NCBI RefSeq assembly: GCF_001007935.1
Contig: NZ_CP011451.1
Coordinates: forward strand, 3,906,001-3,970,000
From: Nitrosomonas communis
GTDB lineage: Bacteria; Pseudomonadota; Gammaproteobacteria; Burkholderiales; Nitrosomonadaceae
Reading direction: 5' to 3'
Length of the DNA: 64,000 nucleotides
Positions 2,533 through 48,063 of this stretch are shown here, in pieces. The stretch's first letter is position 1. Every line of letters starts with the position of its first letter. The translations under genes and the position numbers were made by a program. The notes below the pieces were generated by a model, which was not told the DNA's origin, did not search any database, and saw only the letters and a program-made list of their open reading frames with translations.

Positions 2533-4191
2533 TCAAGCGCTACGGAAACGTGTTTGTTTCATCAGGATAATAGCCAGAAAAGGTAGAATAAAGCCAATAA
2601 CAGTGACTGTTATTAATAGCATACCTAGTTCACTGTAATCAGCTGGTACAGAGATATCACTGGTGACAGGATCCCTCACTTCGCGTGTAACGACAAAAAT
2701 CTGGTTAATATATTTGCTGCCCAATTGAGAAGCTGATAAAGCAAGGTTAGTAAACGATGCCATGACAGCAAAGAAAGTTGCTTTAAGTTTATCTGGCGCT
2801 GAATTAGCAATCCATGCCAGCATAGGAATCATTGCAATTTGGCCCAGTGGTGATTCTATTGCCGTATCTATTATAGCGATAAAACGTGCGTCTACTATTC
2901 CTCCTGTTTGTGCTGCTGTCCATTCGTGCAAACCAAAGTACATACCTATGATTGGGAAAGACAACAAGGTGCCGGCAATGGTAAGTGCACCTATAATATA
3001 AGCCATAGAGCGTTCTGCCATAAAACGGCGAAATATAAACATTCCCACCAACGTTAAGACCGCACCTATCAATGACAAGGTGGCAAGAAATTGCTGATCG
3101 AAACCTAGTTGATCAATCATCCACCAGGTTATGCCTGCTCCAGGGTTAGGGAGCGCACGGAATATAAATATCAGAATAGCTGTACCCACCAACTGATTGC
3201 GTGCTTCTGCATCAAGCTCACTCGAAAGACGCCAGATCAGAAAAAGAATGATGGCCATTGATAAACAAAAAACAATTTCCTCGGCAGCAGCAAACCCACC
3301 GAGTCCGATACTTAAAGATACAATCGTAAACGCTGCACCACCGCCCAATATCCACCAATTAACCGGCGGTGCTTCGGTATGGATAGTCAACAATGCCTCA
3401 GCCTCTTTACGGTTCAGTCCCTGTGACAAAAAACGTCTCATATTTTGCCGCCGCAACCAGCTCGCAAAAAATACCCCGCAAACCGAGATAAATGGAATCA
3501 CCAAGGCAAGTTTATAAACCAACAAATAGGCAGCGGTCCTACCTTCTTCTGGCATGGCACCCACATCGCGCATCAAAATAACATTCGCAATAGAGACAAG
3601 CACACTGCCGCCAATGATAGCCACTCGGCCAAGAGTTTGCATTGTGACATGCATTTGTTTGCGCTTTTCTAAAGGCAATGGTTTCCCATTCGCATCTACA
3701 CGTGGAACAGCTTCGACTGTCATTGCATCGGCCACTACATCTTGGAGAACATAACCAATCGGAGCAAGTAAGGCGGCTGCTACATACCAGCTTTCTAGTG
3801 CAGCAACACTTCGCATGGTATCGGTATACCCAAGCAATCCGATCATGATGAGCAGGCTTACCATAATCAAACTTGCTCCCAGATAGACGAGCAAGCTCTT
3901 CCAACGCCATATCAAGTCGACAAGATGGCCAATCGGCATTTTGAGCGCCCATGGCAATGCCATCCAGAATGCCAGACCTGCCAGGAACTCAGCAGAAAGC
4001 CCCAACCGCTCTTTAACATAAAATGTGCCAACGATTCCAGTCAAGCTTGAAATACCAGCAGCAACGTACACCATTAATGGAGGCAAATACGAAAGCCGCA
4101 TTTCACGGCCCAGCGCAAATATATTGATATCGAACCAACGGTATAAGGCAGCTAGTGCTTTTGAATTTGGATTTGGTGGCACCACTTTCAT
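2533..4191 (-). CDS. Major facilitator permease, BT1/folate-biopterin transporter-like
   Basis: A 552-residue polytopic inner-membrane protein with about 12-14 hydrophobic segments and a cytoplasmic loop near residues 240-275. The stretch TGIVGTFYVKERLGLSAEF followed by PWALKMPIGHLVDL resembles the BT1 group of MFS transporters (folate/pteridine carriers of cyanobacteria, plants and trypanosomatids), where a PW-x-x-K-P motif ends helix 2. AmpG-like muropeptide permeases are an alternative. The substrate cannot be told from the sequence. It is on the same strand as the DegS-like protease gene upstream but separated by about 114 bases, and no shared pathway is evident. Confidence 0.7.
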   Translation of the reverse strand: MKVVPPNPNSKALAALYRWFDINIFALGREMRLSYLPPLMVYVAAGISSLTGIVGTFYVKERLGLSAEFLAGLAFWMALPWALKMPIGHLVDLIWRWKSLLVYLGASLIMVSLLIMIGLLGYTDTMRSVAALESWYVAAALLAPIGYVLQDVVADAMTVEAVPRVDANGKPLPLEKRKQMHVTMQTLGRVAIIGGSVLVSIANVILMRDVGAMPEEGRTAAYLLVYKLALVIPFISVCGVFFASWLRRQNMRRFLSQGLNRKEAEALLTIHTEAPPVNWWILGGGAAFTIVSLSIGLGGFAAAEEIVFCLSMAIILFLIWRLSSELDAEARNQLVGTAILIFIFRALPNPGAGITWWMIDQLGFDQQFLATLSLIGAVLTLVGMFIFRRFMAERSMAYIIGALTIAGTLLSFPIIGMYFGLHEWTAAQTGGIVDARFIAIIDTAIESPLGQIAMIPMLAWIANSAPDKLKATFFAVMASFTNLALSASQLGSKYINQIFVVTREVRDPVTSDISVPADYSELGMLLITVTVIGFILPFLAIILMKQTRFRSA

Positions 4192-37030: not shown

Positions 37031-38398
37031 GTGAAGCCGTGGGACCCTCATGTACTACCTTACAAACATATCATCGCAGCAAAAAAGAATTTACTCAACC
37101 TCAGCCCACCGGCAGTTTTATTTCTAGGTTTTGCATTGCTGATTGCTATTGGTACTGTTTTACTGAAACTTCCTATCGCTTCGCATAGTGAAACCAGTTT
37201 GTTGCAGTCAATTTTTACAGCAACCTCCGCTGTAACAGTCACAGGATTAATTTTACTCGACACCGGCACCCATTTCACCTTGTTTGGGCAGATTGTCATT
37301 GCGCTGCTGATTCAAGCAGGAGGCTTGGGGTTTATGACTTTTGCTATTGTTGCGGCAGTAAGCCTAGGCGCAAAATTAGGGATTGGTCAGCAGGTAGTTG
37401 TACAAGAAGCATTTAACCAAACCAATCTGGAAAAGGTTATTTATATTGCAAAATATGTGCTGATTTATTCCCTGTTTATAGAGCTTACTGGCTTCATATT
37501 GCTTGTTTTAACCTGGTTTAATGAGCTGGGGTTAAGCACAGCCATCCATCATGCTTTTTTTTACACAATTTCCGCATTCAATAATGCTGGTTTTGCTTTA
37601 AGCAGCAATAGCCTAACTCCTTACTTTAATAACTTATCAATTAATTTAGTGATCACTGCACTTGTTATTATTGGAGGCATAGGTTTCTTAGTCTTAATTG
37701 ATATAAAAACACAGAAAAGTTGGCATAGGCTCAATGTTAATACCAAAACTGTATTATTGAGCACGTTCATAATCAATATATGCGCATTCACGCTCATATG
37801 GGTTCTTGAAGTCAAAAATCCTGCCACCCTTGGTCAGTTATCTATCCTTGATCAAGCATTAACAGCCTGGTTTCAAGCGGTATCCCCTAGAACTGCAGGT
37901 TTTAATACTGTGCCGATAGAAGAATTAACTCAAGCCACAACGACTCTCATGATTTTATTGATGTATATTGGTGGAGGATCGTTAAGTACAGCCAGTGGAC
38001 TAAAAATTGGCACTTTTGTTGTTCTCATAATGGCAACTTATGCTTTTTTACGACGAAGAGACGATGTTGTAATTCTTCAGCGTACCGTACCGCCAACACA
38101 GGTTATGAGAGCACTTGCATTGGCCATCGTATCAATTATTATGATATTTATAGGTATATTTATCCTGACACTTACTGAAAATGCGCAATTTATTGATATC
38201 GTTTTTGAAGTTGTATCGGCTTTAAGCACTGTTGGATTGTCTAGGGGCTTAACTACCCAATTAAGTATAACAGGTGAAATCGTGATAATTTTTTTTATGA
38301 TTATTGGGCGTGTAGGACCACTAACATTTGCCTATTTCTTTGCTTCTCCAAAGAAAAAATATATCAAGTATGCAAATGCTGATATTCAGGTTGGTTAA
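37031..38398 (+). CDS. ktrB: K+ channel subunit KtrB (TrkH family)
   Basis: Ion-conducting subunit of the Na+-dependent Ktr system. 455 residues, with four pore repeats visible by their filters: TSAVTVTGL, FNNAGFAL, SPRTAGFNT and STVGLSRG. I place the start at the GTG 37031, four bases after the ktrA stop and with GAGG upstream; an in-frame ATG at 36965 would overlap ktrA by 62 bases and add a tail foreign to the family. Confidence 0.92.
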   Translation: MKPWDPHVLPYKHIIAAKKNLLNLSPPAVLFLGFALLIAIGTVLLKLPIASHSETSLLQSIFTATSAVTVTGLILLDTGTHFTLFGQIVIALLIQAGGLGFMTFAIVAAVSLGAKLGIGQQVVVQEAFNQTNLEKVIYIAKYVLIYSLFIELTGFILLVLTWFNELGLSTAIHHAFFYTISAFNNAGFALSSNSLTPYFNNLSINLVITALVIIGGIGFLVLIDIKTQKSWHRLNVNTKTVLLSTFIINICAFTLIWVLEVKNPATLGQLSILDQALTAWFQAVSPRTAGFNTVPIEELTQATTTLMILLMYIGGGSLSTASGLKIGTFVVLIMATYAFLRRRDDVVILQRTVPPTQVMRALALAIVSIIMIFIGIFILTLTENAQFIDIVFEVVSALSTVGLSRGLTTQLSITGEIVIIFFMIIGRVGPLTFAYFFASPKKKYIKYANADIQVG

Positions 38399-38454
38399 CT
38401 TTATTATCATTTTACTAATAGGAATTAATAAAGAACCACAAAAGCAAATATGGA

Positions 38455-38858
38455 TCAAGTATGTTTGATCCGCTCCCGCTGCTCCTCCCACAGCACCGGC
38501 AGATCCACCGCCAAATCAAACAGCGTGATATGATTTTGCAAAGTATCATCCAGAATGGAAGCGATGATGTCAGGCGCAAGCGTAGTCAGGTTCACCATGC
38601 GACTGACGTAACTGCTGTCGACTCCTTCACGAGTAGCAATCTGTTTCAGCGATTTGACTTTCCCCGACTCGAGCATAGCAAGCCAACGGTGACCTCTTGC
38701 CAAGGCTAATTGCAACGATGTTGCCACCGTGTCCCAAGGTCGAGTCTTGGCAATTTCGCTGTTGGGTAACGTGACTAACTTACGCCCACTACGGCACTTC
38801 ATCTGAATTGGTACGGACAAGGTCAGTCTGCCATCACTTGCTTGGTGGTTCGGCCTGT
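38455..38858 (-). pseudogene. 3' fragment of a large serine recombinase-type gene
   Basis: About 134 codons, RPNHQASDGRLTLSVPIQMK through ALARGHRWLAMLESGKV, an HTH-like KQIATREGVDSSYVSRMVNL, and LDDTLQNHITLFDL. I recall this sequence as the C-terminal or companion part of recombinases in mobile cassettes. The upstream part is missing: it runs straight into the truncated IS630 copy, so the Met at 38868 belongs to IS DNA. The fragment should be inactive. Confidence 0.6.
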
Positions 38859-39387
38859 TGCATGCCAATCTTTTACGCCATGGACGCGCTCACCCACTGG
38901 CGCATAGCCATGCGTGCGTAGTATATCGTGCGCAAAGCCGCTTTCATCAAAGTAAATGATGACGCGGCCTCGCGCTCATAGCCTTCAATTTTTTGCTGGA
39001 AGATACGCCGCCCTTCTTCGCTGGCTTTGGGGTGACGCAGGCTTTTTTTATAAGTCACACTCAGACGCTTCAAAGCGTGATTAATGCCTTGCTTGCTGAC
39101 TCCCAGCCGCCTGGTACGCTCGAACACGCTCGTACTGATACGCGTCTGGATAATTCTTGACGTCCTGCGCCAACCTCTCCATGTTGATCTTGGTGGCAGG
39201 CTTGTTACGGGTTGTCTTGGGATCGGGAGTCTTGATCCAACGCGTCACACTGGCCACACCTACGCAAAAACGCTTGGCCACTTGCGCAATTGGGAGGTTC
39301 TCCTTCTCCGAACGGATAATATTTTACGGCGAAATGATATCGGATAGGTCATCTGTAAATTACAATCAATTTATAGGGGATATGCTA
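38859..39387 (-). mobile_element. IS630-family element, copy A, truncated
   Basis: Homologous to copy B at 51465-52358. It starts at 39387 with TAGCATATCCCC (TA flank 39388-39389) and runs to about 38859, where it is cut within the GVKDWHA coding stretch. It holds the first transposase frame (to GSQQARH) and an overlapping second frame from MFERTRRLGVS, which later loses one base near YERE. It was inserted at a TA in the IS3 orfB and is inactive. Confidence 0.82.
39081..39330 (-). pseudogene. IS630 transposase (copy A), N-terminal frame
   Basis: HTH domain VAKRFCVGVASVTRWIKTPD and NKPATKINMERLAQDVKNYP, ending GSQQARH and a stop. The same stop and the same split at YERVRAYQA occur in copy B, so the break is older than the copies' separation. 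Continuation 38873-39127 carries RRLGVSKQGINHALKRLSVT. Confidence 0.75.
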
Positions 39388-39819
39388 TATCGCTGACCCA
39401 CGCTTTCTCAAGTGCGCTAACAACACAAGCTCTCTTTTCAGAATATTGGGTGCAAACGGCAAATGATGTTTAGAATAGGTCGTGACCTTGAATTTACGCT
39501 TTTGCTTACAACGCAAATTCAGCTTCTTGCGGAGCACTCGGACACGGTATGCTGTAATCTGTACCCCCTGACCTACCAATTCGCTATGCAAGCGTTTCAC
39601 ACTGTAGGTCTCTCGGGTGCGTTGTTGTGCTGCCAGTATTTCTATTACCAGCCGTGCATTTTTCTGTTCACGTTCACAAGGTGGGCGAATATTCCACGCA
39701 TGAAATCCGCTCTCTGAAACATCGAGTACACGGCACATAAGTGCAACGGGGTATTGCTGTCGCAGCGTATCAATCATGCCGTATCTCACCGCGACTCCCT
39801 CGCGAAATAGGCCGCACAC
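39388..39819 (-). pseudogene. IS3-family OrfB (DDE transposase), truncated
   Basis: Begins MCGLFREGVAVRYGMIDTLR, then MCRVLDVSESGFHAW, RETYSVKRLHSEL and LRCKQKRKFKVTT. A frameshift near KREL and the IS630 insertion at the codon for the expected WVSDI-TY motif remove the catalytic D-D-E domain. The stop used here (TAG) comes from the IS630 end. Confidence 0.8.
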
Positions 39820-40088
39820 TTTTTTATGAAATCTCGCTCCATCTTGACTTCTGCCAATTCACGTTTAATCCTGGATAACTCTAATTCAAGCTCAGTCAGT
39901 GAACTCTGCTTTTTACCTACAGTTGTGAGTTCGCCTTGCCAGTCAGCATAAACCCAGTTCTTTAACGTTCCCTTAGGTAAAGATAGTCCTTTTGCTGCTT
40001 CAACCAGCGTCAATCCACTTTCTTTAAAAAACTTAACCGATTGCTCACGAAACTCTTGGCTATATCGTGTGCGGGGTAATTGTTCCAT
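39786..40088 (-). CDS. IS3-family OrfA
   Basis: 100 residues: RYSQEFREQSVKFFKESGL HTH and the leucine-zipper-like LTELELELSRIKRELAEV, ending ERDFIKKCAAYFARESR. The A AAA AAG heptamer at the Lys-Lys codons is a classic -1 frameshift site that would join OrfA to OrfB. Without an intact OrfB the element cannot move by itself. Confidence 0.85.
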   Translation of the reverse strand: MEQLPRTRYSQEFREQSVKFFKESGLTLVEAAKGLSLPKGTLKNWVYADWQGELTTVGKKQSSLTELELELSRIKRELAEVKMERDFIKKCAAYFARESR

Positions 40089-40393
40089 CTATATCTCCAT
40101 TTCATGTCTATATTTTATGAAATTTGGACTCCATAAAACTCAGCATACCTCACGAGCCAGAATGCTCTAAAACATGGCATGCATATTAACCATGAAGAAA
40201 TAAGAAGTGGCAATGCAAAAGCATAGAAAAATACTGGAACAGCTATTATGAAGCCCTGCAATTATTTCCAATAATTTTCTTATTGAATAATGCTGTGCTC
40301 CCAGACAGGATGGCTGTTATACTTTATTTTTATGCATTTCTCATGATCTCTATGGTTATTGGAAGTCCTAATTAGACAGGACTGACTGTTAGA

Positions 40394-40783
40394 ATGAAAA
40401 AAATAATTGCGTTATTTCTACTTTTTTCTCTGTCGGGCACGTTATATGCAGCCGGACCGTATGATGGCATTTACTCAGTAATCGTTAGTGGCGTTACTTC
40501 AGGCTATGCCACAGTACATGAAGTAAATAATAAAATGGTTGTGATTATAGTTGACCCCATGCCTAATACTCCATGGGAGCCAATGATTGGTACCCGAAGA
40601 GGTAACAGCGTTTCTCTAACAAATGTTGTCGGCGTAAGTTCTTCTGATATTCAGCTAAAAGTAACTGTTAATTTCAATGACAATGGTCCCTCAACAGCCA
40701 CTATAGCTTCGTGCGTCAATGGCATTTCTCATGTGTGTCTATTTCCGACTGGCTCAAAATTTAACTTAGAAAAATTATTTTAA
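40394..40783 (+). CDS. Secreted hypothetical protein
   Basis: 129 residues, not recognised. Signal peptide MKKIIALFLLFSLSGTLYAA, then a small beta-rich domain (DGIYSVIVSG, MVVIIVDPMP, DIQLKVTVNF) with two Cys near the end (CVNGISHVC) that could form a disulfide. It lies upstream of the His-rich unit 1 on the same strand, with 190 bases between. Confidence 0.65.
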   Translation: MKKIIALFLLFSLSGTLYAAGPYDGIYSVIVSGVTSGYATVHEVNNKMVVIIVDPMPNTPWEPMIGTRRGNSVSLTNVVGVSSSDIQLKVTVNFNDNGPSTATIASCVNGISHVCLFPTGSKFNLEKLF

Positions 40784-40972
40784 GGGCGATCTTATTCTTT
40801 TTAGCTCTTAATTGAAGTATCCTACCCTATAACTTTTCTCACACTTATGCAAATAAGATATAAGCATTCGCAATTCTATTTTTCAGATTATTCAGCTTGT
40901 ATTCATGATATTCACTGTAAAGTTATTACTAACAGAAGTCATTCTAATAAATAACGATTAAAGAGGTGCAAC

Positions 40973-41287
40973 ATGAAAACAAGAACTAATATAAATATGC
41001 GAGTAAAATTTTTATCTGTTATGTTATTAAGCGTTGCTTTAGCAGCGCCCATGGCAGCTGAGGCCAAAAAAGGCCATCGTCATCATCACCGCCATCATAC
41101 CCATCATCATCACCATCATGGCCATCAGAGCCATCATCACCGTCATACCTACTCTAATCATTACAACACGCAGAATATTTATTACAACCAACCCTATCCG
41201 CCCGCGCCCGCATATGGCATAGCAGCGGGCAGGTATTTTTTAGGTGTTAATACGGGCAATGTCGGTTTTGTGTTATCAGGCTATTAA
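40973..41287 (+). CDS. Histidine-rich secreted protein, unit 1 (intact)
   Basis: 104 residues. Signal peptide to about residue 31 (AAPMAAEA), then a domain with about 24 His in 35 residues in runs such as HRHHHRHHTHHHHHH, then YNTQNIYYNQPYP and a conserved tail GRYFLGVNTGNVGFVLSGY. Most likely a periplasmic or outer metal binder (Ni, Zn, Cu or Co); this is inference from composition. AAAGAGG precedes the ATG. A paralogue at 43805 shares the leader, His block, tail and about 60 bases of upstream DNA. Confidence 0.8.
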   Translation: MKTRTNINMRVKFLSVMLLSVALAAPMAAEAKKGHRHHHRHHTHHHHHHGHQSHHHRHTYSNHYNTQNIYYNQPYPPAPAYGIAAGRYFLGVNTGNVGFVLSGY

Positions 41288-41532
41288 CTTGGATATCTCT
41301 CTAGGCTGGTATTAAATCGAGATCACGAATAGAGAGCGTCTTTACAAATATTTTTAAGGTTTTGATTGAAACGCAATGCTGGCTGGTATTTTTGGTTTCT
41401 ATTCTATAGTGTGAAGCTTTATAAAATACAGTTTGTGCCTGGATATCAAGCGAGTAAAATTAGTTCATAAACCACTCATAAATAATGTATATGTTATAGC
41501 TATTAATCAGGCGGTAATAAGGCTTTAGATTT

Positions 41533-41640
41533 ATGAAAGCCTTATTAACAAACATATCGAGTCCATTAACAAGCTTGTCATTTATATAAACACCCTATTG
41601 GGGTTGATGAATGAGACAATTGTGATAAATGGAATAGTTG
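41533..41640 (+). pseudogene. Degenerate copy of the Cys/Asp/Trp-rich micropeptide, unit 1
   Basis: Nucleotide homology to 44352-44474 is clear (TTTATGA start, TTAACAAACA, CAAGCTT, then GTTGATGA and GATAAATGGAATAGTTGCTG), but the frame hits TAA at 41587 after 18 codons and more stops follow. The acidic Cys-rich end is lost. A strong hairpin terminator follows at 41651. Confidence 0.6.
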
Positions 41641-41650
41641 CTGAGCAGAG

Positions 41651-41683
41651 CCCGCCAGATAATTCATAATCTGGCGGGTTTTT
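41651..41683 (+). terminator. Rho-independent terminator of unit 1
   Basis: 10-bp stem CCCGCCAGAT (41651-41660) with ATCTGGCGGG (41669-41678), then TTTTT. Confidence 0.88.
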
Positions 41684-41689
41684 ATTAAA

Positions 41690-42097
41690 TTATACTATCA
41701 CCACCACTTTCTGAAAAAGCGGATTAATAATTACTGATAAAAAAGCATCCCGGTCTTTTTTGGTGTCAAATTCATAAATATGCCCTTGATGTTCGGGAGA
41801 CTCATCACATAATGAGCGATCAGGACAAGATAAAATTGCATAATGCTTTTTTACTTCTTCGGTTTTATGCTCCTCCAATTTTCGTAATAATTGAGATAAT
41901 GAGCAGTTTATTTTATCGTAAAGGTCTCTGCCATTCTCCGTCAGCACACCTATCTCATCATCGTTAGTTAGCCGAACTAGATCGGATAATATCGCAGTAA
42001 ACCGTTCTAACTTGGCGATGTCGGTTTCAAGCTGCTTTGCTATACTTTTGGTTGAGATATTGACCGGCTCTGTTGTCGTAATATTTTGCATAGTCAT
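41690..42097 (-). CDS. Hypothetical cytoplasmic protein
   Basis: 135 residues, not recognised. The N-terminal half is helical and charged (IAKQLETDIAKLERFTAILS, LSQLLRKLEEHKTEEVKKHY); the C-terminal half has two Cys (SCPDRSLC), HIYEFDTKKDRDAFLSVI and ends in a hydrophobic VVVIV. AAGAAGAT precedes the ATG. It lies between the two His-rich units, antisense to them, with the unit 1 terminator just past its stop. Confidence 0.55.
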   Translation of the reverse strand: MTMQNITTTEPVNISTKSIAKQLETDIAKLERFTAILSDLVRLTNDDEIGVLTENGRDLYDKINCSLSQLLRKLEEHKTEEVKKHYAILSCPDRSLCDESPEHQGHIYEFDTKKDRDAFLSVIINPLFQKVVVIV

Positions 42098-42232
42098 TTT
42101 TACATCTTCTTAGTTACACCAGAGGATAATCTACAGCATGTAGCATCATAGCTACTTGATTAATGTCAAAGAATATGATGTAAAAGTGATAAATAGATAA
42201 GTAAAGCGTTGCCCGGTTGCGTGCACGGATTA

Positions 42233-42334
42233 TTCCATTTCTAAATCAAAAATGACGCGGAGGCGAACCGCAGACAGTATCAATCATACTGCAAGGTGAA
42301 GACGACAAAGTCAGTTTTGATTTAGAAATGGAAT
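42233..42334 (+). mobile_element. MITE copy 7
   Basis: 102-bp copy with TA on both sides (42231-42232, 42335-42336). It lies between the two His-rich units. Confidence 0.87.
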
Positions 42335-42647
42335 TAAACCCCTGAATCGAGGCGCCTTCCTTAGCTGTGAATGATTTACTTCTTGGTAGTGTTGTGTGCA
42401 AGTGTATCTGTGATGCTTTTCATTTTGTATTTTCCAATCAATAATGATAAAAAATATATACTTAATACCTAACAAAAGAATTTAATATTATTTTCTGCGG
42501 CTTTTTTAAAATTTATAAGAATATTTTTATGTATGCATAATAAGATGATACTTTGCGGTTACAGCTCCATACCAAATAATCATTTCAGTAAATTTCTAAA
42601 TGTGTACTAGCTCTACAATATCAATTCGCTGTATTACCCAGATTTAA

Positions 42648-42828
42648 GGGCATCTTTAAAAATTCAGAGTTCTCAACAAGACAAGGCAAGAGCAAAAAAT
42701 GTTGAATCCGCCTATCACTGATAGGTAAGGAAACATTCTTTGTAAAGAATGAAATACTGTGACGAGACAAGGTAAGCAGGCAACCAGCGAAGCGGATGCT
42801 CGCAGATATCAATTTTTAGAGGTGCACT
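42648..42828. repeat. Possible second MITE or IS remnant (~180 bp)
   Basis: Imperfect terminal inverted repeats: GGGCATCTTTAAAAATT at the left and, inverted, AGTGCACCTCTAAAAATT at the right. The inside holds no frame. Only one copy is visible here, so this is weak. Confidence 0.4.
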
Positions 42829-42839
42829 TAATAAGGATT

Positions 42840-42960
42840 GTTTGTTCTTTATAGTATAGCAACGTATCTGAATTACCGTTATGTCAGATACTGTCAAATG
42901 CCATAGATATCGTCGTACTACCATACACCATAACGCTCAATCAAAAGATAAGCCATGATC
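42840..42960 (+). pseudogene. Remnant of a second integrase 5' region
   Basis: Closely follows the sequence upstream of and into the integrase at 31130-31260: TATAGTATAGCAACGTATCTG, TACCGT, GATACTGTCAAATGC, then CATAACGCTCAATCAAAAGA where the other has codons for HNAKPKDKP. It is too degraded to code. It suggests that a second element or a duplication of the tRNA-Leu island edge once lay here. Confidence 0.55.
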
Positions 42961-43680
42961 AATCACCCTTCAGCCTTTGTTGCGCCATTTATAAATAATA
43001 AAATGCAGGGCAATCAAATCATGACCAGCAAGAATAACTTATTTAGGTCAATTCATTAGGTCCTTTTAGATGCTGCTCGGCAATATGGTTTAAGCAGAAA
43101 TCAAACTAAACGCCTTCTCAATAATATGAAGCGTCCAGGCAATCACAAGTTTTATCAAGATAAGTTAAGGTATTGCCATAATGATTTTGTTTCCCCATAT
43201 ATTATGACAACGTCGATATACAGTATTTACCAAACTTAATCGCTTAAAAACAAAGCCAGCAATGCCAAGCAAAAAGATATGTTTAAGCACCTACTATGAA
43301 TTTATAAAATGCTCATGGAATAATTTTTCAAAACAATACTAAAGTTCCACCAATTACTACCGTTAAGATAATTGTCGCTTAGTAACGACAATTATAACTC
43401 TTTGATAAGTAAAACAATGAAATTCCCACGGGATACCCCCTTATTCAGTGGGAATTTCTTATTTGTATTAAATTAGATTACCAATAAGGAACCAATCCAT
43501 TCTCTGAAATTTTCATGCTAATACCACGCCTTACCGTAATTTTGCACAAGCAATCTAGAAAAACAGTTTTTTATGCTTAATTTACATACTATGCGATTGA
43601 AATAGACGATTTAATCCTCTATAACTCTCACTCAGAATAACGATCTTCTAATTTTCTTGATAATTATGAAAGCTAGGATA
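42961..43680. other. Gene-free AT-rich interval with two hairpins
   Basis: No credible coding frame. Two hairpins stand out: ATAATTGTCG / CGACAATTAT at about 43368-43395, and an 11-bp stem GAAATTCCCAC (43419-43429) with GTGGGAATTTC (43448-43458). The second may be a terminator of a lost gene. Confidence 0.45.
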
Positions 43681-43804
43681 TGAGCATTTTCAATCTTATG
43701 TTTTTATTCTATTCAGACTGTTCAGCTTCTATTCATGATATCCAGGATAAAGTTAGCACTAACAGAAGAAATTGTGATCAACAGAAAAATCAGGGAGATA
43801 TAGC

Positions 43805-44122
43805 ATGAGAGCAAGAACAAAAATGAACACGCCAGTAGGATTACTATCTGTAATATCATTGAGTGCTGCGTTAGTAGCGCCCACGATGGTTGAAGCCAGA
43901 CGAGGCTATCATCACCATCATACCCAGCATCATCACCATCACCATAACCATAACCATAAACATCATCACCATAACCATAAACATCAGCATCATTACAACA
44001 CACAAAATATTTATTACAGTTAACCTTACTACCCAACCGTGCCTGTATATGGCGTAACACCAGGCAGGTATTTTCTGGGTGTAAATACGGGTAATGTTGG
44101 CTTTGTGTTGTCGGGCTATTAA
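43805..44122 (+). pseudogene. Histidine-rich secreted protein, unit 2, interrupted by TAA
   Basis: Paralogue of 40973. Signal peptide to about VEA, then a His block with His-Asn-His-Lys repeats (HHNHNHKHHHHNHKHQHH) and YNTQNIYYS. Here TAA (44021-44023) stands where unit 1 has CAA (Gln). After it the frame runs on with PYYPTVPVYG and the same tail GRYFLGVNTGNVGFVLSGY to a TAA at 44120. So a single nonsense change removes the conserved tail. The truncated 72-residue form would still be exported and still have the His block, so it may keep metal binding. Confidence 0.78.
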
Positions 44123-44351
44123 GACGAATATTTCTCCAGGCTGGCGTCTACATGAAGAATACATGAATCATTAGCGGTACTTTTCTAGGTTTCAAAGGCT
44201 AGTTTCTACTTTAATATGGGAAGCTTTATAAATTAAAAGTTTTTCAAGATATATAAAGATATAAAAGAGTGTGAAATTTTGCTTATCTATCATCAACTAG
44301 GCAGCATGAATTCTATAATCATTAACAAAAATAAGCTGGAGCATAATTTTT

Positions 44352-44474
44352 ATGACAATTTTAACAAACAATATCTTGGTGACATTATCAAGCTTATTAT
44401 TTGCAAAAAAACCTCAATGGGTTGACGATTGGGAGGATTGCGATGAGTGGGATGAGTGCTGCCCAGGCTGTTGA
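44352..44474 (+). CDS. 40-residue Cys/Asp/Trp-rich micropeptide, unit 2 (intact)
   Basis: MTILTNNILVTLSSLLFAKK, then PQWVDDWEDCDEWDECCPGC. The first half is hydrophobic and could be a short signal or membrane segment. The second half has four Cys, seven Asp/Glu and three Trp in 20 residues, very unlike a chance frame in this AT-rich DNA. A homologous but broken copy follows the His-rich gene of unit 1 in the same relative place. Possible roles: metal-binding partner of the His-rich protein, or a processed peptide. No ribosome site is strong. All roles are inference. Confidence 0.5.
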   Translation: MTILTNNILVTLSSLLFAKKPQWVDDWEDCDEWDECCPGC

Positions 44475-45051
44475 AAATAAATCAAGTAAAATCAAGTATT
44501 CTGGCACCAGCAGGCTTGCCTTGCTTTCTGGAGAACCAGGGTTGTTCTCTTTGAAAAATTAAACGGATAGGTACAGGACAATGTTTTCTTTAAAGAAATT
44601 CTAAAAATTTAATCGACGCTCCCCTGCCCTATTTTCCTAAATCTCCTCAGAAAAGGAATAAAATACTTATTTACTTATTGATACCTAGCAAGAAAAATTG
44701 ACGACCCATTTAAAGCCCGAAAAATAAAAATCATTATGTTAGAATGTTTTTGTGATATTTTGCGGTTATGATTCCGACATCAGCTTAACATTCAAAAAGA
44801 TTAGAAATATTCCATAATTCCTTAATACTCAAGGATTGATTGGTTATTTTATATCCATGATAATACATAAGCTAATAATATCAGCCTGCAAATGGTTGGT
44901 ATATTTATCAGTATTTGCTAATATCAAAATTCAGATATCAATAAATTACTAAGTGCCAGTAATATTTGGTACTTTTTTATTTTAAACCAGTGGATATTTA
45001 CTAACTTGCGTCTAATTTGAGAACGCTATTTTAATGAGAAGAGCATTTACC
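44475..45051. other. Gene-free AT-rich interval
   Basis: About 575 bases between unit 2 and the next gene. No credible frame, repeat or clear terminator seen. Confidence 0.45.
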
Positions 45052-45468
45052 ATGAAAAAATTACTTTTTGCCATTTTAGTTTCTATGATATTTGCAAATA
45101 ATCTTTATGCGAAAAAAAGCAAGGGGAGCGTATCAAAAGGATCATTTAGTTCCAAGCAAAGTAGTTCTCAACCTGCTACCACCCAACAAAAGAGCGCTAC
45201 TACATCAAATCCCTCGACATCAACCCAAGCACAAACACCTAATACGCCAGCTCAGAATCCATCATCAGCGACCAGCTCAAGTGCATCCACAGCTGCACCA
45301 GCACCTAGCGCACCAGCTCAAAATCCATCAATGCTTCAATCAGTCATGCCAGCTTTAGTGGGTGGCGCAGTAGGAAGTTATGTCGGCAGCAAATTAGCCG
45401 ATGGCGGGGATAATGAAAACTTAGAAGAAAAAGAAGCAAAGAAAGAAAACGAACTTTTAAACCCATAA
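45052..45468 (+). CDS. Secreted Ser/Thr/Pro/Gln-rich protein with glycine-zipper-like segment
   Basis: 138 residues from the ATG with AGAAGAG upstream. Signal peptide MKKLLFAILVSMIFANNLYA, a long low-complexity stretch (about 25-95: Lys/Ser, then Ser/Gln/Thr, then Ala/Pro repeats with PAQNPS twice), a short hydrophobic Gly-rich segment VGGAVGSYVGSKLADGG, and a charged Glu/Lys tail. It resembles surface or envelope linker proteins; no family recognised. Confidence 0.65.
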   Translation: MKKLLFAILVSMIFANNLYAKKSKGSVSKGSFSSKQSSSQPATTQQKSATTSNPSTSTQAQTPNTPAQNPSSATSSSASTAAPAPSAPAQNPSMLQSVMPALVGGAVGSYVGSKLADGGDNENLEEKEAKKENELLNP

Positions 45469-45499
45469 GCATATCATTCCATCCCTTATTTAAATCCGA

Positions 45500-45537
45500 A
45501 GAAACCACCAGGAGGATAGGTTTTCTCAGTGGTTTCT
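45500..45537 (+). terminator. Hairpin behind the Ser/Thr-rich gene
   Basis: 9-bp stem AGAAACCAC (45500-45508) with GTGGTTTCT (45529-45537). No T-run follows, so terminator function is only possible. Confidence 0.4.
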
Positions 45538-45665
45538 AATGTGAATTCATAACACCTAGCACTCGACATCTTTTCAACTGTTACCTTTACTCACGCAAAT
45601 AACTGCTGAAGTAATGGATTTGCTTGCAAAAATGTTGATTAAAAGCAAGCCAAGCGACATCCTCA

Positions 45666-45767
45666 TTCCAATTCTAAATCAAAAATGACGCGAAGGTGAG
45701 CCGCAGACAGTATCAATAATACGGCAAGGTGAAGCCGACAAAGACAGTTTTGATTGAGAAATGGAAC
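45666..45767 (+). mobile_element. MITE copy 8
   Basis: 102-bp copy. The right flank is TA; the left is CA, probably a mutated TA. It ends 20 bases from the end of the aroQ-pheC gene. Confidence 0.85.
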
Positions 45768-45787
45768 TACGGACAACATCAATCTGC

Positions 45788-47169
45788 TCAACGTTTAATA
45801 GCCGATGAGTTTTCGGAAGAAAAAGCATCCTTAAGTCGCTGGCTGACTTTCCCGCTTTCCCGTTCTGCGCTCAGCCAGGCATCCACCTTTGTGATCAACT
45901 TTGGATCGCATGCTATTAAAAGCGCCTTATCGTACTGGGTAAAGACCTCAGCGGTCGCCCGGCATAGCCTGGAATCGCGCTGCGTCTGCAAATCTACCTC
46001 CACATCGTTGGTCACCATCAATCTGCACGGCCGGTAGCGATTTCTTCAAATATCGTCCGATTATCGGTGTATAGAATGGGCTGCACATTGTGTAAGTGTT
46101 CTCGAACAAAGCGCTCGTTTGTCCCACCGGGATTCACGATCACACGCACACCCGCTTGGTTGATCTCATTTAGTGAACCAAACCGTGACTCAGTTCCACA
46201 TCGTACAATTGGCGTCTTGCCACCTCTATAATACGGAATGGAGAACGATCCAATTGGAGCCCGTTCAGTGGTAATGCTAATCCCGCCAATCGCCAGATCG
46301 AAGCGGTTGCCCTGATAGTCAGTCATTAACGTAGCCCAGGTCGTTCGAACGAACTGAGGCTCGGCATCAAGAAAGGCCGCAAGCGAGATGGCCGCAGCGA
46401 TATCAGCGCCGGTGAGCATGCCCCTCGACTCCAGTGTAAAAGGCGCATAGTCACCTGTCGTGCCAATTCGCAGTATTCTGCTTGCTGTAATTCGCTGCAG
46501 TGCCGGAACTGGCATCAGCCGCAGCCGCGCGAGCGCATCGAAAAGTGCGTTGATATCCCGTTCTTCCACCCTCCGCTGTGCAATGCTATGCGCTGATCCA
46601 GCGTAATAGCTATGGAAATCCTGGCGCTGAAACTCGGGCATCGCAAGATAAATGGTCTGCATCAGTTGAACGCCGAGTTTATCCAATTGCGGACGCAGCT
46701 CTGCGCTCAGATCGAGTGGCGCTGCTGGCACAACCCCCGCAGCGGTCCATTGGTCGATGAATCGCTGTTGCATTTCGCGCGCTAGTCGCATCTGCAACGT
46801 AAACAGCTCACGTACTGGTTCGGCAGAAATGCCGAATGTCTGTGCTTGAGCCACCGTCGCCTCGAGCACAGAGCTTTCCCTAACGTCATCAAGAACTGGG
46901 CGCTGATGTACATACTTCCATGCAGCAACTGCTTGCATCAATTCAAGACGTTTATCGATCAGAGCAAAAATTTGCCGAACCTGATCTTCCTGATCGAGAA
47001 AGCTGAATTGGGCAACCGCGGTATTTGCAAACAGCACAAGCAAGGCACATAGGATGCAGGAGAGTTTTCTAACAGCAATGCACCAGCTGGCAAGGGCATC
47101 ATGATACGTGCCTCTGAGTATAGGTGATAGGAATCCCTTTTCCATCCAGCGGTATGTATTAAAAGTCAT
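45788..47169 (-). pseudogene. Periplasmic chorismate mutase (AroQ-gamma) fused to cyclohexadienyl dehydratase (PheC-like), frameshifted
   Basis: Signal peptide (CILCALLVLFANTAVA), AroQ domain (about 55-190; QIFALIDKRLELMQAVAAWK), then a periplasmic binding-protein-like dehydratase domain (RILRIGTTGDYAPFTLESRG, DLAIGGISITTERA, NPGGTNERFV). Together they would turn chorismate to prephenate and then to phenylpyruvate outside the cytoplasm. At about 46020 one base is missing: GRAD meets a stop, while the next frame goes on as VMVTNDVEVDLQTQRDSRLC to a natural end. Without the last ~75 residues the dehydratase should be inactive. It could also be a sequencing error. The exact start is uncertain. 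Confidence 0.8.
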
Positions 47170-47286
47170 CTATATTGTCTTTAGAGTCAAGCAACCACGT
47201 CGCAGCAGGAGATTTAATTTCAGATCGGGAATATCCACCAGCGCTTACTCGTCCAGCACAGGCTATGCCACAAGCCATTTTCAAAC

Positions 47287-48063
47287 TCACCTCGGCAACT
47301 TCTGCTGATGTTCAATGACGGCGGTTTTCTCGTCGGTACGGGCAAATGCATCGATAACCGCCAAGGTTTTCTCAGTCAGGTTAGTGACAGCCATGGCAAA
47401 GTTCTTTTGAAACTCGCTCGGTGCGTCGGGGTGAGTGTCGATCAAATCAGTGATCGACTTGATGGCAAACATCGGCGTGCCGGTGATATAACCTACCCAG
47501 GCGACAGCAGTAGCTTCCATTTCCTTCACAACCGCGCCATGAGACACGATCGCAGCCAGATCCTGTTCAGTAAAATCAAGCGAGTTGTCGCTGGAAATAT
47601 TGCCGAGTGGCAGGCTAAGCTCACGTGCCAAATGGCTAACATCCAGTGACGGATAAGCGCCTTTCCCGAACTTGTCCCAGCCGGGAAGCGGGATACGATG
47701 ATCATGAAAGTAAAAAGTTGAATCGCTTAAATAAACCCTTCCAATGGAGGCGCCATGTTTAGCAAAACTACCGGCAGTGCCCGCACTCACTAATACAGTG
47801 GGATGAAATTCTGTCACGGTTGCAAATGCAGCAACCGCTGCCGGCTCCGTGCCGATGCTATCCACCTCATAGCGAGGATCCTTTCCTGGGATAGTAATAG
47901 TCAGCTCAAGAGGATCTGTCGGATGATCTCGATAGCTGCCTCGATAAAACTTCAGCGGCAGACGTTCATAAAACGGACGAGGGACAAAGGGTCTCAATGC
48001 CAGGGCATCGATCAAACCCTGTGCCTCGGATTCCATCGCCATAATAAAGGAAAGCTTAGGCAT
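47287..48063 (-). CDS. MTA/SAH nucleosidase-like purine nucleoside hydrolase
   Basis: 258 residues of the nucleoside phosphorylase-I superfamily: SFIMAMESEAQGLIDAL, VLVSAGTAGSFAKHG, VVKEMEATAVAWVGYITGTP (ribose-binding Met-Glu region) and AIKSITDLID with the catalytic Asp. The closest type in my memory is the plant-like MTA nucleosidase group. It would cleave methylthioadenosine or S-adenosylhomocysteine to adenine. It lies 117 bases upstream of the aroQ-pheC gene on the same strand. Confidence 0.82.
   Translation of the reverse strand: MPKLSFIMAMESEAQGLIDALALRPFVPRPFYERLPLKFYRGSYRDHPTDPLELTITIPGKDPRYEVDSIGTEPAAVAAFATVTEFHPTVLVSAGTAGSFAKHGASIGRVYLSDSTFYFHDHRIPLPGWDKFGKGAYPSLDVSHLARELSLPLGNISSDNSLDFTEQDLAAIVSHGAVVKEMEATAVAWVGYITGTPMFAIKSITDLIDTHPDAPSEFQKNFAMAVTNLTEKTLAVIDAFARTDEKTAVIEHQQKLPR

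Follow-up and report, generated by a model that had tools for sequence, protein, structure and literature searches.

Two tandem units in the chromosome of Nitrosomonas communis, within a 64,000-nucleotide (nt) stretch referred to here as the window (bases 3906001-3970000 of the single 4,067,838-base chromosome of genome G000), each carry a shared promoter, a gene for a histidine-rich (His-rich) exported protein and, downstream of it, a tiny gene. The tandem two-gene unit is real at both positions first described in an earlier note on this DNA, where the first and second units, U1 and U2, share an upstream region. We put it at slightly better than even that U1 and U2 arose by copying within a two-component regulon that spans the genus and probably responds to metal, and that the core of the peptide encoded by the tiny gene has been kept. 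The shared promoter box, the two-component operon, the adjacency of the two genes, the homology of the second genes and the constraint on the peptide core can all be read directly from the sequences. Comparisons were made across a set of 85 Nitrosomonas genomes, of which the source genome G000 and three others (G002, G072 and G069) bear the peptide; signal peptides of the His-rich proteins and of the tiny peptide were called by eye.

Conservation of the tiny-gene core

The tiny gene was found open in four of the 85 genomes (E<=0.05), starting 218-242 nt past the stop of the U2 His-rich gene, and the adjoining His-rich gene is intact in G072, G002 and G069. The earlier proposal that the two genes work as a pair thus holds as far as adjacency is concerned, the pair staying together in all four genomes, and it gains from the constraint on the peptide core described below. 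The four cases of adjacency are not independent, because all represent one ancestral locus. A protein search with the tiny peptide returned one relative, of 36 amino acids (aa), and a scan of genome contigs returned three loci, in Nitrosomonas sp. Nm34, in N. communis Nm44 and in a Bacteroidetes sequence, the last being a 12-residue match that was taken as chance. A family-wide profile search reached 8 of 125 genomes at E<=0.05, including the known four; single partial matches in G034, G042, G086 and G111 (E 0.0015-0.03) were dropped as chance after inspection of their frames.

When the five forms of the peptide (36-40 aa) are aligned, 20 of 40 columns are invariant, including P21, W23, V24, D26, W27, D29, C30, D31, E32, W33 and D34, and codons 21-34 (PQWVDDWEDCDEWD) are clearly conserved. 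The ends of the peptide vary (WDEY twice, WDDC, WDDCCPNY and WDECCPGC), so that the Cys-rich CCPGC end, noticed in the earlier note, is not conserved.

These features have to be weighed against a relic explanation, on which truncation of a longer exported-protein gene left the tiny gene behind, its product being unimportant and its conservation reflecting some other constraint on the DNA, or chance. The start of the tiny gene is homologous to such a longer gene (see below), its U1 sister copy is dead wherever there is a U1 (G000, G072 and G002), its length and end vary, it is present in four genomes only and its translation is a prediction. Against this explanation, the frame is open in all four U2 copies, and codons 21-34 are conserved far above their surroundings, with 37 of 42 nt invariant across the four genomes, whereas the non-coding flanks have 198 of 358 (P=5e-6). 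Changes within the core are nearly all at third positions (variable columns at codon positions 1, 2 and 3: 1, 0 and 4), whereas the signal part, with 22 of 60 columns variable (8, 7 and 7), is flank-like (P=0.13). The homologous U1 stretch behaves differently from the U2 core: in the three genomes with both units, 40 of 42 nt of the U2 core are invariant compared with 29 of 44 in U1 (P=8e-4), and the U1 stretch is less conserved than its own flank (234 of 277). Nor does an RNA element account for the conservation, as far as the searches reach: shuffled sequence folds as well as the core stretch 44400-44480 does (z=0.16), and Rfam at its gathering threshold gave no match within 38000-48000. Given a conserved core, a flank-like signal part and an unconstrained U1 stretch, we conclude that the tiny-gene core is probably translated and under selection, the signal part drifting and the U1 copy dead, and we regard the relic explanation as rather improbable. 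The ratio of nonsynonymous to synonymous substitution rates (dN/dS), which had been suggested as a check on the last 20 codons, does not bear on this choice, that stretch being too short to decide and the whole-gene pairwise values of 0.24 to 1.18 settling nothing.

Origin of the tiny gene

The His-rich paralogue at 978 kilobases (kb) in G000 is followed by a gene for a 119-aa exported protein with NPYG repeats, and the same gene or a close relative lies at G002:C81. Over its leader and first about 28 codons, this gene matches the G069 tiny gene at 83 of 120 nt (z=26), and its leader and start also match the G000 tiny gene (z=12). The 119-aa protein fell into no Pfam or NCBIfam family; a search at E<=0.001 gave 476 relatives, with lengths of 90-130 aa for most of the 120 that were listed. 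This search takes proteins of at least 65 aa and so could not have revealed the tiny peptide. Because the long form is so widely spread, we infer that it is ancestral. The long and tiny genes occupy the same place behind a His-rich gene and have homologous leaders and signal-peptide regions, but the tiny gene is without the NPYG-rich part that follows the signal peptide and has a new acidic/Trp/Cys core. The tiny gene therefore appears to descend from a 119-aa-type gene, having been shortened and having acquired a different core while keeping its place in the unit, although we do not count it as a member of the NPYG family. Selenocysteine insertion or other recoding at the tiny-gene TGA was considered and rejected, since this codon either falls in dead U1 copies, which also bear other stops or a frameshift, or ends the 36-aa forms.

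Probable turnover of His-rich gene copies

The first genes of U1 and U2 belong to a His-rich family recognized by a box promoter, a signal peptide, a His-rich middle and a C-terminal TGN tail. The earlier note recognized two such loci; G000 has five (U1, U2 and copies at 3321, 3145 and 978 kb), of which three are intact. A 42-residue tail query found 22 places in 9 of the 85 genomes at E<=0.001, and the family is wider than this query reaches because the operon loci described below carry further members. Among 30 such operon loci the family tail was found in the first gene by motif in 29, the thirtieth (L073) being one residue off as judged by eye, and the His content of these first genes ranges from 5% upward. 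Orthologues of both U1 and U2 are present in G002, on one contig, and in G072, on two contigs; a single U2-like unit occurs in G069, where none of the three matches to the tail query is a U1. In a nine-sequence tree the three U1 copies group together (support 0.997) and the U2 copies of G000, G072 and G002 are set apart from the rest (0.999), with G069 weakly placed (0.633). This grouping indicates that the duplication predates the split of G000, G072 and G002.

The observation that each G000 unit has exactly one intact gene, the His-rich gene in U1 and the tiny gene in U2, was correctly made in the earlier note, which explained it as a duplication partitioned by reciprocal loss, with U1 supplying the His-rich protein and U2 the peptide. 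The other genomes contradict this as a shared state. The nonsense codon of the U2 His-rich gene is seen in G000 only, being absent from all three U2 orthologues (G072, G002 and G069), so that the tiny gene of those genomes has an intact His-rich gene as its neighbour in U2. G000 itself has two further intact His-rich genes besides U1. The 3321-kb operon copy also carries a nonsense codon, a TAG (G000:C1:3321232-3321540 (-)) at the same Gln position as the U2 TAA (44021-44023), where the other His-rich copies examined have Gln; the operon copy of G072 (G072:C95, L029) has a frameshift near its start, and its G002 counterpart is intact. With the operon copy broken in both G000 and G072, single copies evidently come and go. 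The three intact His-rich genes and the second paralogue interrupted at the same Gln thus point to copy turnover, and the state of U1 and U2 looks like its outcome rather than like partition. Partition, which could survive only as a very recent change in strains near G000, appears to us highly unlikely. In both interrupted G000 forms the reading frame ends after the signal peptide and His block but short of the tail, and these forms may represent either decay or a shorter working version.

A promoter box shared with a two-component operon

The His-rich genes share the box GTTCAGnnTGnrTTCAT followed by a -10-like ATAAAGT. The promoter alignment covered 20 of the 22 loci, the U1 boxes of G000 and G072 being found by pattern scan instead. 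Scanning G000 with the long pattern (at most 3 mismatches) gave 7 sites and none with the reversed control; five precede the His-rich genes, as expected of a pattern drawn from that family, and the others precede a gene for an exported protein of ~262 aa at 3110 kb or lie at 583 kb. The same scan gave 6, 6 and 4 sites in G002, G072 and G069, with 0 control sites in each. The box 5' of the ~262-aa exported protein recurs in three genomes (G000:C1:3109941-3109974 (-), G002:C97:26063 and G072:C58:2573). The 583-kb site is an orphan seen in two genomes (G000:C1:582583-582616 (-) and G072:C40:27687-27720 (-)), with no open reading frame found behind it, and may mark an RNA gene or a place from which a copy was lost.

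At the 3321-kb locus the His-rich gene is followed by genes for a PepSY protein, a PhoP-like response regulator and a PhoQ-like kinase. The PepSY gene is present in 80 of the 85 genomes (70 of the 70 good ones) and the kinase in 83. The PepSY protein scores 35.7 bits against a cut-off of 24, and the proteins beside it match Response_reg/Trans_reg_C and HATPase_c. Against the NCBIfam equivalog models the regulator reaches 208 of the 336 bits set for PhoP and the kinase 205 of the 497 set for PhoQ. The modelled sensor domain of the kinase appears closest to PhoQ; a sequence-profile search of the PDB with this domain gave no relative, its one match at E=1.2 being taken as chance. An abundant N. 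europaea PepSY protein, Q82VY9, is named in PMC5960693 and may be the operon PepSY.

Among the 30 best-scoring of 82 PepSY places, which were fetched with their surroundings, a TTCAG-N6-TTCA box lies upstream of the first gene of the operon in all 30, exactly in 27 and with one mismatch in 3. At the 29 loci with a located regulator start, neither the reversed pattern nor a window within the regulator gave an exact site. The position of the box at the operon ties it to the operon's own regulator, which we infer acts there.

The box precedes heavy-metal efflux genes

In G069, a box identical to the His-rich box over 17 bases is followed by genes for a TolC-type outer-membrane factor, a CzcB-type adaptor, a CusA/CzcA-family pump and a PII-like protein; the pump scores 1099 bits against the NCBIfam CusA/CzcA cut-off of 701. 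The PII-like protein, of 107 aa (G069, L118 7828-8151), comes directly after the CzcA-type pump. The CzcC-like outer-membrane gene gave 85 matches in 83 of the 85 genomes, and of the 30 loci fetched from these matches 17, including those of all four peptide-bearing genomes, with that of G000 at 3059 kb, have an exact TTCAG-N6-TTCA within 600 nt 5' of the gene. This compares with 6 among 119 other windows from these loci and none among 30 for the reversed pattern (P=7e-10). A role in metal binding or storage had earlier been guessed for the units. Because the box of the His-rich promoters also precedes the CzcC-like efflux gene, a role in metal handling gains separate support and the regulon is probably metal-responsive, while metal binding by the His-rich proteins themselves would be a further prediction.

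A model for the regulon and its limits

In the model we favour, the ancestral operon would have encoded a His-rich exported protein, a PepSY protein, a PhoP-like regulator and a PhoQ-like sensor kinase. In the N. communis lineage the His-rich gene would have been copied with its promoter to several sites, some copies having behind them a second gene for a small exported protein, of which the 119-aa gene at 978 kb is an example. This second gene would have shrunk to 36-40 codons in the lineage of U1 and U2, and after the tandem duplication the U2 tiny copy would have been kept while the U1 copy died. Upon activation of the kinase, the regulator would bind the box and the His-rich proteins would be made and exported; as the efflux pump drives metal out, they would bind or buffer it in the periplasm or at the outer membrane. 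Translated from the transcript of its His-rich neighbour and likewise exported, the peptide may add an acidic, Trp- and Cys-bearing piece that binds metal or a partner. That the regulator acts at the box, that the two genes of a unit share a transcript, that their products are exported and bind metal, and what the peptide does are all predictions of this model.

A more specific proposal, which we offer tentatively and consider fairly unlikely, would make the 36-40-aa product a micropeptide of a new kind, encoded in the regulon and exported. Its gene would have arisen when a longer exported-protein gene was truncated and would have been retained for the acidic/Trp/Cys core, which would either handle metal together with a His-rich partner or tune the kinase. 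The regulon, on this proposal, grows by copying the promoter and His-rich gene and reshaping the gene behind.

Several observations weigh against placing U1 and U2 in a metal-responsive regulon with a functional peptide. The box is tied to the regulator by position, and this link, like expression, is predicted from sequence. Neither the regulator nor the kinase reaches the curated cut-offs set for PhoP, PhoQ and metal-response models, and several operon first genes are just moderately His-rich. On the efflux side, 13 of the 30 fetched CzcC-like loci are without an exact box, one of the 17 boxes (L123, at -579) may be chance, and the operon was read past its first gene in G069 only, the first gene being what was matched elsewhere. 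The signal part of the tiny gene varies as non-coding DNA does, and the presence of the gene in just 4 of 85 genomes implies that the system does not need it.

If the model is correct, what appeared to be an isolated curiosity becomes a testable regulon of one box, one kinase/regulator pair, a His-rich exported family and an efflux pump. Ammonia oxidisers rely on copper and iron enzymes, so that extracytoplasmic metal handling matters to them. The tiny gene would also offer a concrete case of a micropeptide derived from a longer exported-protein gene that shrank and was then kept, with the dead sister copy as an internal control. Searching the open-licence PMC literature, we found no title or abstract start on these Nitrosomonas His-rich genes, the box or the tiny gene.

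Organisation and surroundings of the two units

The upstream regions of U1 and U2 are 80% identical over 70 nt (at 40882 and 43712, respectively), and further matching blocks comprise a 116-nt tail block and a 34-nt block, each at 79% identity. The features of the two units are collected in Table 1.

Table 1. Features of U1 and U2, in window positions.
Feature	Position	Strand	Remarks
U1 promoter box, TTCAG-N6-TTCAT and -10-like stretch	40890..40923	+	pattern site, 2 mismatches; reversed control 0 genome-wide
U1 His-rich exported protein, 104 aa, intact	40973..41287	+	orthologues in G002 and G072
U1 tiny-gene remnant	about 41533..41645	+	frameshift and several stops; homology to U2 tiny gene; no constraint
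U1 stem-loop followed by T run, likely terminator	41647..41684	+	fold z=-5.7
U2 promoter box	43720..43753	+	pattern site, 1 mismatch
U2 His-rich gene with one in-frame TAA	43805..44122	+	open part 43805-44023, 72 aa; intact in G072, G002 and G069
U2 tiny gene, 40 aa, hydrophobic N-terminus and acidic Trp/Cys core	44352..44474	+	open in 4 of 85 genomes
Conserved tiny-gene core, codons 21-34	44412..44453	+	37 of 42 nt invariant in four genomes

Judged against 1000 dinucleotide shuffles, the homology between the U1 remnant and the U2 tiny gene exceeds chance (z=9.5), as does, against 1000 shuffles, that between the remnant and the G069 copy (z=19.8). The U1 stem-loop folds in all three U1 genomes (G000, G072 and G002); the fold of a hairpin downstream of U2 is not significant (z=-0.28). 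A terminator scan gave 3 sites, compared with 2.7 in shuffles, and none between the two genes of either unit, a silence that is weak evidence because the scan also missed the strong U1 stem-loop. A two-gene transcript would be the simplest reading of each unit.

Adjoining U1 is a gene for a 135-aa protein (41690-42097 (-)), retained there in G002 and G072, for which no family match rose above cut-off. A 105-nt element, present in two copies that are 90% identical (42232-42336 and 45665-45769) and bounded by 25-nt inverted ends, is like a small non-autonomous transposon; a similar element lies just within the start of the G002:C97 His-rich gene. A non-coding stretch at about 44690-44780 is strongly conserved (up to 90% invariant across the four genomes) and sits 5' of a Ser/Thr-rich exported-protein gene (45034-45468). 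No match for 43690-44600 was found in the plasmid collection.

Comparison with known systems

The box-bearing operon of G069 resembles CzcCBA/CusCBA in having a CusA/CzcA-family pump that scores above the family cut-off; U1 and U2, in contrast, encode no pump and are linked to the efflux operon by the box alone. The box itself recalls the operator of BqsR, TTAAG-N6-TTAAG, which overlaps the -35 region (PMC4682146), in that both have two pentamers separated by a 6-base spacer, here TTCAG-N6-TTCA(T/G) just 5' of the -10-like stretch. The Nitrosomonas box differs in the sequence of its pentamers and is a predicted site, with 4-7 sites per genome at <=3 mismatches of the long pattern.

Another known system suggests a different role for the tiny protein, namely that it is a membrane-held, MgrB-like feedback modulator of the regulon's PhoQ-like kinase, with its N-terminus in the inner membrane and its acidic Trp/Cys part touching the sensor domain. 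MgrB is described in PMC8404706 as a 47-aa membrane protein of the PhoQ/PhoP regulon with functional periplasmic Cys and Trp residues. The tiny peptide is likewise very short (36-40 aa), has a hydrophobic N-terminus and invariant Cys and Trp residues in its presumed periplasmic part, and is encoded behind a promoter with the box of a PhoP-like regulon whose kinase has a modelled sensor apparently closest to PhoQ. MgrB, however, has two conserved periplasmic cysteines, and the tiny peptide has a single invariant one, the second being Tyr in two of the five forms; its core is strongly acidic, and its N-terminal part is unconserved, whereas the transmembrane part of MgrB matters (PMC8404706). None of five members matched MgrB in NCBIfam or Pfam at E<=1, in a search whose speed filters miss proteins this short when the match is weak. 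The operon also occurs without the tiny gene in nearly the whole genus, and its PepSY protein may already serve as kinase modulator (PMC12714742). An MgrB-like function thus seems to us decidedly improbable.

The operon at the root of the proposed regulon finds a close counterpart in the DbfQRS-like modules, which are defined by a gene for a small PepSY protein no more than four genes away from that for a kinase or response regulator and which include V. cholerae DbfQRS and P. aeruginosa PA2658 with BqsRS (PMC12714742). In Nitrosomonas the PepSY gene adjoins those for the regulator and kinase, and all three lie in one operon that forms a genus-wide core locus. It differs in beginning with a gene for a predicted His-rich exported protein, which appears to have been copied elsewhere together with its promoter.

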